NCBI GenBank assembly: GCA_018969485.1
Contig: JAGWYG010000006.1
Span: forward strand, 1-64,000
DNA length: 64,000 bases
From: Chloroflexota bacterium
GTDB lineage: Bacteria; Chloroflexota; Chloroflexia; Chloroflexales; Roseiflexaceae
Reading direction: 5' to 3'
Within the stretch, counting starts at the first letter, position 1, and every line of letters starts with the position of its first letter. Positions 30,654-35,043 of the stretch are shown piece by piece. The notes under the pieces are model-generated. The model was not told the origin of the DNA, searched no databases, and saw nothing but the letters and a program-made list of their open reading frames with translations. The translations under genes and the position numbers were made by a program.

Positions 30654-31034
30654 TCAGGTGCGCGGGCGCAATGTACGCATCAGCGCCATGCCGCCGAGCA
30701 TCATCGCCGCAGCCAGCGCCAGCCAGATCACCCGCAGATCGTCGGCGCCACCCGACTCAGGCATCTGCGCCGGCACCGGCGTCGCCGTCGGCGGTGCCAC
30801 CGTCGGCACGACCGTCGGCGCGGTCGTCGCCGTCGGTGCACGTGTCGCGGTCGGCGGTATCGCGCTGGCCGTCAGCTGCGCCTGAACCGTGGCCAGCGGC
30901 AACTGCGTCGGTGCCAGCGTCGGCCTGGTTCCCTGCGCGCGCCCGGGCGCCGCATCGACCACAGTCGTCAGCGTCAGTGCGATCAGCGCGATCGCCAATG
31001 CCCAGACATAGGTTCGCATCGTCGTCCCCATCAT
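30654..31034 (-). CDS. Secreted Pro/Thr-rich protein with C-terminal anchor-like segment
   Basis: A 126-residue protein of unrecognised family. A signal peptide (TYVWALAIALIALTLTTVVDA, cleavage near residue 28) is followed by a low-complexity PTATRAPTATTAPT linker. At the C-terminus, MPESGG precedes a hydrophobic stretch (VIWLALAAAMMLGGMALM) and a basic tail, RTLRPRT. That order mimics an LPxTG sorting signal, but the motif is MPESG rather than LPxTG, and no sortase is nearby. A plain C-terminal membrane anchor is the safer reading. The ATG overlaps the stop of the upstream gene (ATGA). It is the third gene of the operon that starts at 33430. Confidence 0.7.
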   Translation of the reverse strand: MMGTTMRTYVWALAIALIALTLTTVVDAAPGRAQGTRPTLAPTQLPLATVQAQLTASAIPPTATRAPTATTAPTVVPTVAPPTATPVPAQMPESGGADDLRVIWLALAAAMMLGGMALMRTLRPRT

Positions 31035-32230
31035 TTCACCACGACATTGATCGGGCTTTCGACCACGCCGCCACTCGAATCGACGTCACCGAAGGCCTCA
31101 TTATAGGTGTCACCCAGCACATACACCCGATACGAACCGGGCTGGGCGAAGCCGACGAAGTTCGAGCGATCGGCATCAGCGGCGAACGAGCTCAATGTGA
31201 TCGTCTCGCCAGGCTGCAGCACCTCGACGCGCCATGTCGAGCCAGAATCGGCGATGTCACTCCAGGGCAGCAGCGGCGCCGGCTCGCGGCGCGGCGCGAT
31301 GTACAGATCGACCCAGAACGGCTGCGTCGGACGATCGGTGATGTTGGTGACGCTCACCAGGATCTCGACCGGATCACCGACGGTCGGCTGCGCCGGACGC
31401 ACGTCCTGGATCACCGTCACCAGCAACGGCCCAGCAGGCAACGGCGTGGCGGTCGGCGGCGGTGTGGCCGTCGGCGGCGGCGGCGTGGCCGTCGGCGGCG
31501 GCGGTGTGGCCGTCGGCGGCACAATCTCCACTGTCGGCGGCGCGGTCGGCGTCACGGGCAGCGCCGCGGGCTGGCCAAAGCTATTGATGACCAGCACCAG
31601 GCCGATGATCACCGCAAGGCCCAGCACCGCAGTGCCCGCGAACCACAGATACTGCCCGGAGCGCTCGGGTGGCGCCTCGGCCGCCGGTGCCGCCGCCGGT
31701 GCTGCCACCGGCGTATCATTTGAGCGCACCGCAATCCGGGGCAGCGGGTTGGTCTCTGACGAACTCGGTGGGCTGGGCACGATTACCGGCGCGACCGGTG
31801 GTGCGGCGCTGGGCGGCGGCGTGATGATCGGCGCTGGCACGACCGGTTCGGCGGGAGCGAGCAGCGGCCGCGGCAGCCGCTGGCGCAGAATCGATGCCAA
31901 GGCTGTCGGCCCGTACGGGCCAGGATGCGCGACATCGAACCCGACCGCAAGCATCGCACCCTCGCGGCCGATCGTCACCAGCGCCGGACGCTGTCGCAGC
32001 AGCCGATAGGCGGCGAGGATGGCCGTGTCGCCGCCAGTGCGGCCGCACAGCGCCACCGACGCACGCTGCGCCTCGGGCGTGTTCTCCAGTTCGCGGGCGT
32101 CGCGTACGACGATGAAGTCGTAGCCAGCCTCGGAGATCGCCCGCCCCAGCGGCTGCAGATCAGTGTAGGCCACCCCGATCGCGATCGCGAGGGTCGGATC
32201 GACGTCCTGCTCGGGTGTCGTCTCGTCCAT
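31031..32230 (-). CDS. Single-pass membrane protein: receiver-like domain, Pro/Thr linker, CARDB-like domain
   Basis: A 399-residue protein with unusual architecture. Residues about 12-115 look like a response-regulator fold (LAIAIGVAYTDLQPLGRAIS, ending ASILRQRL) but without a clear phospho-accepting Asp. A Pro/Ala/Ser-rich cytosolic linker follows, then one transmembrane helix (about 193-217). Outside the membrane come four TATPPPP-type repeats and a C-terminal CARDB/Ig-like beta domain: VGDPVEILVSVTNI, LQPGETITL and a PGSYRVYVLGD block. It could relay or anchor across the membrane. The gene lies 9 bp downstream of the coiled-coil gene and overlaps the anchor-like gene by 4 bp. Confidence 0.72.
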   Translation of the reverse strand: MDETTPEQDVDPTLAIAIGVAYTDLQPLGRAISEAGYDFIVVRDARELENTPEAQRASVALCGRTGGDTAILAAYRLLRQRPALVTIGREGAMLAVGFDVAHPGPYGPTALASILRQRLPRPLLAPAEPVVPAPIITPPPSAAPPVAPVIVPSPPSSSETNPLPRIAVRSNDTPVAAPAAAPAAEAPPERSGQYLWFAGTAVLGLAVIIGLVLVINSFGQPAALPVTPTAPPTVEIVPPTATPPPPTATPPPPTATPPPTATPLPAGPLLVTVIQDVRPAQPTVGDPVEILVSVTNITDRPTQPFWVDLYIAPRREPAPLLPWSDIADSGSTWRVEVLQPGETITLSSFAADADRSNFVGFAQPGSYRVYVLGDTYNEAFGDVDSSGGVVESPINVVVK

Positions 32231-32239
32231 AGCTTCCGT

Positions 32240-33430
32240 CTAACTGACGTACGCGAAACGCAACGTCCGACCGGAGGCCTCGCCAGGGCGCAACGTATCA
32301 GCCATGTCGACGCGCAGAACCTGTGCGAGCGCGGCGACGTCGTCGGCAGTGATGTTGAGTTCGAGCAGCCGCTGCTCGTAGCGCAACAGTTGGACATTCC
32401 GGATGCCGTTCGCCCGGCTGATCTGGTCGATGAGCTCGGATGCGATCACGAAGTTGCGCACGTCGCTGACTTCGACGTGGAACCGGTTGGCGGCAGTCTC
32501 GCCTTCGGCCTGCGCGGCGTCGGGTGGCGTGACTTGGCGCGTCTCGGCGCGCGGCGGCACGGCGGGTGGCGGTGGCGCTACCGGCGGTGGCACGACGGGC
32601 GGCGGCGACACAACCGGCGGTGGCACGACGGGTGGCTTGGCTGCTGGCGTTTCGCTGCGCGGCGCCGGCGGGACGGGCGTGCTACCGACCGGCCGCACCG
32701 GCTGAGGCGGCGGTGCTACCGGTGGAGTGGCGCGCGGCGCGGGCGGCGGCGGCGGCGTAGGGCGTGGCGCGGGCGGCACGACTCGCGGCCGCTCGGCAGG
32801 TGGCTCGGCGGCGCCAGCGGGGTTTACGGCGCCGGTGATCTGGAAGAGATCGGCCAGAGAGCGCTGCAGGCCCGCGAGACGGTCGCTGAGTGAGCGCGTC
32901 TCGGTGCGCAGCCGATCGCGCTCCTCGTAGGCATCCTGCAGCATCTGCGCAACTTCGGTCTCCGCCTGCTGGCGCATCGCATTCAGGTCGGCTTCGGCCT
33001 GTTGCAGGTCGTGGGTGATCCGGCTCTGCGCCTCGGCTTCGCGCCGCGCCAACTCGGCTTCGGTGTGCTGGCGTAGCTGCTGCATCTCGGCCTGCGCCTG
33101 GATGCGCATCTGGTTGATCTCGGCAGTGGCGGCCGCACGCTCCTGCGCACTCTGGGCGCGAAGATCGGCGATCTCCTTCACCAGCAGATCGCGGGCATTC
33201 TGCTGCTCGAGACGCATCTCGCGATACCGGCCGAGCAAGAGCTCAGCTTCCTGCTCCATCTGGCGCGTGAGCGTGCTGGCGAACTGGACGGCTTGCTCAA
33301 TGCGCGCCTGGATTTGCTGATCGACGGTCTGATAGAGGCTCAGACGCTTGTGGGCCCACTCGCTGAACCGCTGCTCGTCTTCAAACGCAGCAGACTGACC
33401 GCCGGGAGTGCCTCCTGGATTTGTGTCCAT
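32240..33430 (-). CDS. Coiled-coil protein with Pro-rich linker and conserved C-terminal domain
   Basis: A 396-residue protein, family not recognised. Residues about 15-190 form a long Gln/Glu/Arg-rich coiled coil (e.g. QQIQARIEQAVQFASTL, AEAQSRITHDLQQAEADL). Residues about 205-315 are Pro-rich (PPPVVSPPPVVPP). The final 80 residues make a compact domain, FHVEVSDVRNFVIASELIDQ to LRVDMADTLRPGEA. No signal peptide or membrane helix is visible, so it is probably cytosolic, perhaps a scaffold beneath the membrane protein encoded next. The ATG at 33430 is chosen for GAGAGAGG upstream. An earlier in-frame start at 33493 lacks a binding site. Confidence 0.75.
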   Translation of the reverse strand: MDTNPGGTPGGQSAAFEDEQRFSEWAHKRLSLYQTVDQQIQARIEQAVQFASTLTRQMEQEAELLLGRYREMRLEQQNARDLLVKEIADLRAQSAQERAAATAEINQMRIQAQAEMQQLRQHTEAELARREAEAQSRITHDLQQAEADLNAMRQQAETEVAQMLQDAYEERDRLRTETRSLSDRLAGLQRSLADLFQITGAVNPAGAAEPPAERPRVVPPAPRPTPPPPPAPRATPPVAPPPQPVRPVGSTPVPPAPRSETPAAKPPVVPPPVVSPPPVVPPPVAPPPPAVPPRAETRQVTPPDAAQAEGETAANRFHVEVSDVRNFVIASELIDQISRANGIRNVQLLRYEQRLLELNITADDVAALAQVLRVDMADTLRPGEASGRTLRFAYVS

Positions 33431-33618
33431 CGCGGAACCTCTCTCGCCAGTTGCGCTTCGCCGTTCAGGAGCACGTCGCCGGGCAGTGAACAATCGCCGT
33501 CCGGGCTGTGCGCCACGCTCGACGGGTATGCCTCACAGGCGCACCGGACAAACAACCCCGCAGTTCCGACAGCTTGCTGTGCCGAACTGACCGCGCTGGG
33601 TGCCCTGTTTCCGGAGCG

Positions 33619-33647
33619 AGTATAGCATAGTGACTTGTGAGCGTCAA
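33619..33647 (-). promoter_or_regulatory. Sigma70 promoter of the coiled-coil operon
   Basis: On the minus strand TTGACG (33642-33647) and TATACT (33619-33624) are 17 bp apart and the -10 is extended by TGC. It shares every one of these features with the infC promoter. Predicted leader is about 175 nt. The -35 lies only 5 bp from the insertion element beginning at 33653. Confidence 0.82.
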
Positions 33648-33652
33648 GCATC

Positions 33653-34236
33653 GGATGTGACGTAACATCTTGTATGGGGGATGACGATGCGCCATCCAGT
33701 TCGCGCTGACGGCGTACGCTTCAGGGGATACCGCATCGCAGCGAGCACAGTCGCGACAGCACTGCGGCGTGGCGGCTTGTCCGCGGACGCCGCACCACAC
33801 GGTTGTGCCGCGGCGAGCCTGGCCACCTGCAGCGCCCGCGCCCTGGCCGGACAGCCCGCGCCACCTGGACGTGCGCTTGCCACATCAGACGTCCGTACCC
33901 TATGTCTCTCCAGAGAAACCTCCCCCGCACGGGGGAAACCCCTCGGCGCCATCGCGGCGCAACCCGGCTGCGCGGGCGATGGTGGCAGGCCGCGTCGGCG
34001 GCTTTGACCCTGGGAGCCGCGCCCCTTCAGGGCGCCGGCACCCCGTCGGGGCGCGCCGTCGCCGAGCCCTGCGACGGCGCGCCGTCGGGGGAGTGTTGGC
34101 AGCGCCTGTACCCGTTCGTGCGGCTGCGGTACGGTCACCGCCTTCGAAAGGCCGCTCGCCCGCGCTTCTTCGCGGCGAGGAAATCGCGATCGCTCGCCGT
34201 ATGCTCCTGCGCACTGCAAAACGCCATGTCACACCC
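33653..34236. mobile_element. Probable non-autonomous element (MITE-like) with imperfect inverted ends
   Basis: The left end reads GGATGTGACGTAACATCTTG. The right end, read inward on the minus strand, is GGGTGTGACATGGCGTTTTG. Both resemble the termini of the adjoining ISKra4-like element (34263-35027). The 584-bp interior holds no supported gene; open frames there lack recognisable products. It contains dispersed-repeat copy C. With flanks it accounts for the gene-free stretch 33648-34262. Boundaries are estimated by eye. Confidence 0.5.
33811..33950 (+). repeat. Dispersed repeat, copy C
   Basis: Closest partner is copy B (20943-21086, opposite orientation); copy A lies at 11-88. The shared core is CCCTGGCCGGACAGCCCGCG followed by CCTGGACGTGCGCTTGCC. 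Copies B and C also agree across a further 50 bp beyond the core. It sits inside the MITE-like element. Confidence 0.6.
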
Positions 34237-34262
34237 ATGTGACGGGCGTGAACGCGTGACGT

Positions 34263-35027
34263 GGGTGTGACGTAACGTTTCGGGAGGTGGTAGACGAGGT
34301 GCAGCGGAGCCATATCACCCCCGGAGGATGCCGATGAGCCGCCCGATCACGACCACCCGTTGGCAGCAGTTGACCCAGGACGTCACGACGGAGATGCGGG
34401 CCTGGCGGCTCGCCCATCCGAAGACAACGCTTCGCGCGATTGAGGTGGCGTTGGATGCGCGCTTGAACCAGATGCGGGCGCGCATGATCGAGGATCGCGC
34501 CCTGGCGGGCAGTGCCGCCGACTGGGCCGCAACCCCTGCTGCGGCGGTTCCCCGGTGCCCGGCGTGCGACCACCCGCTGGAGGAGCGCGGGGCCAACTCC
34601 CGCACGCTCCAGACCCACGGCGGTCAAGCGCGCACCATGGAGCGCACCTACGGGGTCTGCCCGGCCTGTGCGGCCGGGCAGACCCCCTCGATGAGGAATT
34701 GGGTCTGCTGCCCGGCCAGTTCACCCCCCGGCTGCACGAAACGCTGGTGTGCCTGAGCACCACTCACCCCTCCGTTGCCAAGGCCAGTGCCGAACTGGCC
34801 TGGCATACCGGCACCCACGTCCATGCCGATACGGCCCGGCGGCAGGCCCGGCATCCCGTCCCGGCGCCCACCCCGCCACCACCACTCGCCCTCGCCCCAC
34901 CCGCCACACCGCCTACCCCCGGGGCACCCGCCACGAAGCCCCCACATCCCTGGCGGCGCCCTTGGAGCATGCGCCGCCAACGCAGCCTGGTGGGCGCCGC
35001 CTAAGCCCGAAACTGTACGTCACACCC
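34263..35027 (+). mobile_element. Defective ISKra4-like insertion sequence with 22-bp terminal inverted repeats
   Basis: The left end (34263-34284) and right end (35006-35027, inverted) agree at 20 of 22 positions: both start GGGTGTGACGTA and finish TTTCGGG. The 765-bp element carries only the N-terminal part of a transposase with a frameshift. It therefore cannot move by itself. It lies 17 bp upstream of the infC -35 box. Family assignment rests on the transposase fragment. Confidence 0.78.
34328..34930 (+). pseudogene. Frameshifted, truncated ISKra4-like transposase fragment
   Basis: The first frame (34328 to about 34680) encodes a helical N-terminus and a zinc-ribbon-like CPACDHPLEERG, then SRTLQTHGGQARTMERTYGV and CPACAAG. 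At about 34680 coding shifts by one frame to continue PLDEELGLLPGQFTPRLHE, LVCLSTTHPSVAKASAELA and HVHADTARR, the usual order in this family. Matching sequence fades after about residue 200. The catalytic half is missing and replaced by Pro-rich noise, probably by internal deletion. Start codon 34328 has CCGGAGG upstream. Confidence 0.75.
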
Positions 35028-35043
35028 TCGCCTTTCGGGTGCA

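Follow-up and report, generated by a model that had tools for sequence, protein, structure and literature searches.

The window analysed here is a 64,000-nucleotide stretch of DNA from a member of the Chloroflexales, and three genes on its minus strand, designated A, B, and C, follow one another in that order behind one sigma-70-type promoter. The features of the locus and of the encoded proteins are as follows.

33619..33647, minus strand: operon promoter, TTGACG, 17 nt, TATACT, with an extended -10 (TGC)
32240..33430, minus strand: gene A, 396 aa, presumed cytosolic coiled-coil protein with a conserved N-terminal helical region, a Pro-rich linker, and a C-terminal domain
32816..33382, minus strand: A residues 17-205, conserved, presumed coiled-coil helical region with an EQRFSEW..KRL..Y signature at its start
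32243..32479, minus strand: A residues 318-396, predicted ferredoxin-like (beta-alpha-beta-beta-alpha-beta) C-terminal domain
31031..32230, minus strand: gene B, 399 aa, predicted single-pass membrane protein
31871..32200, minus strand: B residues 11-120, aspartate-less receiver (pseudo-receiver), predicted cytosolic
31586..31642, minus strand: B residues 197-215, predicted transmembrane helix (hydropathy 2.73; model helix 192-217)
31034..31432, minus strand: B residues 267-399, CARDB/Ig-like ectodomain
30654..31034, minus strand: gene C, 126 aa, predicted secreted Pro/Thr-rich protein
30951..31007, minus strand: C residues 10-28, signal-peptide-like hydrophobic segment, from hydropathy
30867..30926, minus strand: post-signal motif RPTLxPTxxPL of C, then a (Q/E)LTA stretch, invariant columns in five homologues
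30657..30764, minus strand: tail of C, MPESGG, hydrophobic segment, and basic end, a sorting-signal-like anchor

All the elements named in a preliminary description of this DNA lie where it had placed them. Genes A and B are spaced by 9 bp, and B and C overlap by the 4 bp that it had noted (ATGA, 31031-31034); C is probably translationally coupled to B. Its single promoter ahead of the three genes also stands: a scan of 4 kb found one site, on the minus strand, with 10/12 matches (0.3 expected from shuffles), and seven other genomes (G001, G031, G052, G056, G057, G061, and G078) have the same -35/-10 pair ahead of A. At codon positions 1/2/3, the window and its congener G001 differ by 19/16/132 nucleotides in A, 30/17/158 in B, and 13/7/33 in C. 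The excess at third positions shows that A, B, and C are real genes, and all three, like the gene D described below, are under purifying selection.

In G031, G078, and G061, the spacer between the -35 and -10 elements of the trio promoter contains a run of 8, 9, or 10 G (L032:7092, L079:9452, and L080:1515). It is the sole G/C run of at least 8 in the DNA fetched for G031 and G061, and one of two in that for G078; the trio promoter of the window has no such run. This tract suggests that slipped-strand phase variation may occur at these three Oscillochloris-type loci. Between the trio promoter and infC, the window also holds an element of ~770 bp (34260-35030) with 25-nt inverted repeats at its ends (88% complementary) and a short ORF that resembles a transposase remnant, with no Pfam family above the cut-off. 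Directly upstream of the promoter, 40 nt (33653-33692) are 70% identical to one arm of this element.

The product of gene A shows a helical periodicity of ~3.6 over residues 16-205, the presumed coiled coil. Its C-terminal domain, which had been described as a conserved domain, is predicted with confidence by AlphaFold2 (pLDDT 88), and we are confident that the model is a ferredoxin-like fold with generic neighbours only. The structure matches are generic ferredoxin-like proteins (best Z 6.8), Foldseek returned no match at E <= 0.001, and a sequence search of solved structures with the profile of this domain returned none. The top Foldseek rows, which are RRM, HMA, and ribosomal ferredoxin-like proteins, represent generic folds, so no function was drawn from them for A.

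The N-terminal domain of B had been described as receiver-like and apparently non-phosphorylatable, and the acceptor column agrees: it is occupied by C, F, V, or I, and an aspartate is found in 0/9 B homologues. In the structural comparison, residues 11-120 match the BaeR receiver with Z 9.4 over 97 residues and rmsd 3.0, from a B model that is weak overall (mean pLDDT 56, with the receiver part mostly at ~60-70). At the sequence level, support for this receiver is modest. A PDB profile search with B finds response regulators at E 0.045-0.5, and the B profile weakly matches proteins in other Chloroflexota genomes, two of which (G081 and G184, E ~4e-6) were examined and are ordinary receivers with the aspartate. 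Aligning B or D by hhalign with a thin profile of five ordinary receivers gave nothing significant.

The ectodomain of B, which had been called CARDB-like, matches the CARDB domain of PF1109 (PDB 3idu) with Z 10.0 over 105 residues at 24% identity; other Ig-like domains score similarly, so the assignment holds at the level of the fold. Pfam CARDB (PF07705) is detected at E <= 1 in 5/9 B homologues (best 0.0012), the B of the window not being among them. Glycoside-hydrolase Ig-like domains in the Foldseek list were discounted as an effect of the common fold. Sequences distantly related to the ectodomain also occur in many very long ORFs of other Chloroflexales (up to ~2900 aa; e.g., L007-L030), which probably encode surface proteins.

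The tail of C has the reported order of MPESGG, hydrophobic segment, and basic end, and in the relatives the motif has drifted so that only x-P-x-x-G remains (VPHAG, VPHVG, and IPAAG). The RPTLxPTxxPL motif is present in G076 too. A sortase (PF04203) is encoded in the genome of the window, and the tail of C may possibly be anchored by sortase; sortase genes occur in 22/22 genomes tested, whether trio-positive or trio-negative. When A, B, and C were scanned against Pfam, NCBIfam, and PADLOC, nothing exceeded the cut-offs, which bears out the earlier remark that no known system with this make-up could be recognized.

Besides the window, eight other Chloroflexales genomes from two families carry the trio, among them three species of 'Candidatus Chloroploca', Oscillochloris metagenome-assembled genomes (MAGs), and a LaPlata Chloroflexi MAG. 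A first search of 60 relatives with B found full-length homologues in G001, G031, G052, G056, and G057, and separate searches with the C-terminal domain of A and the N-terminal domain of B led to adjacent places in the same genomes. Several of the genomes are fragmented MAGs. The three genes are contiguous in the window and in G001, G031, G052, G056, G057, and G078; in G076 their order is B-C-A, and in G061 A and B are adjacent at a contig end, with C beyond it. The profile searches proposed earlier thus find the trio kept beyond its first genome, in nine genomes of two families and with changed flanks. The order is conserved except in G076. The module is confined to a minority of the Chloroflexales and is not general in the Chloroflexota. 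Most members of the order, gliding and filamentous ones included, are without it. No relatives were found in viral contigs.

These observations bear on an alternative in which three unrelated genes are neighbours by accident. Low-complexity Pro/Thr-rich regions do inflate similarity, and many matches to the linker and the CARDB-like domain fall in unrelated ORFs. Against this, the neighbourhood is kept in eight further genomes with different flanks, and the permuted order in G076, the conserved promoter, the gene overlap, and the exact co-occurrence speak in the same sense. The conserved linkage refutes this reading, to which we give practically no credence.

The system is not limited to three genes. 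A fourth component, D, is a soluble receiver-like protein related to the receiver of B and present in 1-4 copies per genome. The description as a three-gene system was therefore right in that the trio is conserved, and incomplete in that D, which is often unlinked, co-occurs with it exactly. D adjoins the trio in G031, G052, G056, G076, and G078. The genome of the window (G000) has four D copies and G001 has one, all on other contigs than the trio; the four copies in G000 are divergent (on C82, C183 (two), and C31; L097-L100), and one lies 3' of ileS. The relation between D and the receiver of B (hhalign P 2.7e-5, probability 74%) rests on 14% identity. D has a conserved core, LRLFxQLxxxGRxCVxV and GRGYRW followed by GLxxLLxWG, and its acceptor column contains P, A, or S, with an aspartate in 0/16 sequences. 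Several NCBIfam response-regulator models match D below the cut-off (best E 8.9e-4). Among 400 genomes sampled over the phylum, strong D matches occur only in trio-positive genomes; weak ones in G184 and G374 (E ~6e-4) are presumably chance matches or ordinary receivers.

Three separate profile searches over 82 genomes of the order, with the receiver of B, with D, and with the N-terminal region of A, each detected their targets in the same nine genomes. The chance of such agreement is ~3e-12 for nine of 82 genomes and ~4e-6 for five of 34 genera, shared ancestry not being allowed for in either figure. Even within genera that are divided (2/6 members of g12 and 1/3 of g22), the same members carry A, B, and D. 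Because D lies elsewhere in G000 than the trio, this co-occurrence is not mere linkage.

Could the distribution reflect the way of life of the carriers? One such explanation makes the module accessory to gas vesicles or to planktonic buoyancy. Chloroploca and Oscillochloris possess gas vesicles (PMC6180586), and gvpA is present in 7/7 trio-positive genomes of family f4. However, gvpA is absent from G000, which is 95.6% complete, and from its congener G001, and several gvpA genomes are without the trio. G000 and G001 largely refute the linkage, and we regard this explanation as very improbable. Phototrophy was also considered and dismissed as an explanation, since reaction-centre genes are found in 64/82 genomes of the order and do not discriminate.

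The flanks of the trio differ between genera. In the window and in G078, a member of another family, the trio adjoins infC-rplT-trmH, and G000 and G031 each have a D copy close to ileS. These shared contexts suggest an ancestral module that was kept or lost as a set. They favour retention in few lineages over recent transfer; transfer of linked segments would be a less likely, yet possible, history.

The main rival to the reading we prefer is a sensory role, and it arises because a hybrid kinase adjoins one D copy in two genera. In such a pathway, the CARDB domain of B would sense a surface ligand and signal through the pseudo-receiver to D and from there to gene expression or a histidine kinase, with A localising the receptor. 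D is indeed small, soluble, and receiver-like, with its 1-4 copies, and in three Chloroploca species and G031 one copy is located just 3' of a kinase with HisKA_3, HATPase, REC, and LuxR-type HTH domains (L101:10779-13925 and L102:10423-13608). Against this reading, the acceptor aspartate occurs in no B or D, no recognisable output domain was found in D, and the kinase neighbourhood is limited to those two genera. We consider a sensory pathway unlikely.

The composition of the module is most consistent with a device that couples the cell interior to the surface without phosphorylation. The earlier suggestion that the parts link a cytosolic scaffold to the cell surface can be extended as follows. 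Beneath the membrane, the helices of A would assemble it into oligomers, and the ferredoxin-like domain at its C terminus would dock on the cytosolic, non-phosphorylatable receiver of B; B would span the membrane and display its CARDB domain outside. After export, C would be retained at the outer face through its C-terminal anchor, possibly with the help of sortase, as a Pro/Thr-rich surface partner. D, made from separate loci, may bind the same surface of A (or the receiver of B) and so switch or tune the coupling without phosphorylation. The gene order, the conservation, the shared distribution of A, B, and D, the domain composition, and the missing acceptor aspartate are directly observed; the topology, the contacts, the modulation by D, and a surface role of a structural or adhesive kind are inferred. 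This lineage-restricted, four-component trans-envelope scaffold, with A docking on the pseudo-receiver of B and D as modulator, is the reading we put first, at slightly less than even confidence. A more specific version, in which tethered and free aspartate-less receivers compete for one coiled-coil scaffold and thereby couple or release surface proteins without phosphorylation, phase-variably in some species, we offer tentatively, as something that is possible and rather doubtful.

The way in which pseudo-receivers function in the absence of phosphorylation is still an open question (PMC12632262), and the module provides a natural pair of them, one tethered and one free, in the same genomes. 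Bacteria of this kind form multicellular filaments with septal channels, near-septal pili, and complex envelopes, the genes for which are largely unknown (PMC7332563). Enrichment cultures of 'Ca. Chloroploca' are available (PMC6180586), and the small size of the proteins would allow their interactions and structures to be studied in laboratory hosts. The four-part system has no description in the literature and family libraries searched; searches combining pseudo-receiver with Chloroflexi, or CARDB with Chloroflexus, found no paper.

Among known systems, Myxococcus FrzS appears to be the nearest mechanistic analogue. By its described architecture, FrzS of M. xanthus likewise combines a receiver fold without the aspartate, used for protein contacts, with a long coiled coil, and it demonstrates that protein contacts alone can be enough for such a receiver to function (PMC1974792; PMC12632262). 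The likeness raises the possibility that the module is a regulator of motility or pilus polarity, in which the pseudo-receivers and the coiled coil would place a surface machine at septa or poles; the Chloroflexales do glide, with pili anchored near septa (PMC7332563). However, FrzS carries both parts in one polypeptide and has no surface part, whereas in the module the presumed coiled coil is in A and the receivers are in B and D, the former as part of a membrane protein that has an ectodomain, the latter as a soluble relative. Since the module is missing from most of the order, including members that glide, we judge a motility role to be quite unlikely.

Every B and D resembles the atypical response regulators (PMC12632262) in having a receiver-like fold without the acceptor aspartate. 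Unlike them, B continues into a transmembrane helix and a CARDB-like ectodomain in place of the usual output domain, D stands alone, and the same genomes hold both. With the CARDB proteins (PF07705; PF1109, PDB 3idu), the ectodomain of B shares the Ig-like fold at the Z of 10.0 given above, although Pfam recognises the family in five of the nine homologues and not in the B of the window. C is similar to LPXTG-type sortase substrates in its signal peptide, Pro/Thr-rich stalk, x-P-x-x-G, hydrophobic segment, and basic tail, and in the presence of a sortase in the genome; it differs in that its motif is not LPXTG (MPESG, VPHAG, VPHVG, or IPAAG) and drifts among homologues, and its cleavage is putative. 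In other words, the module is not FrzS-like in architecture, not an LPXTG member by its motif, and not a gas-vesicle accessory, and we file it among the proteins in which aspartate-less receivers serve as interaction modules.
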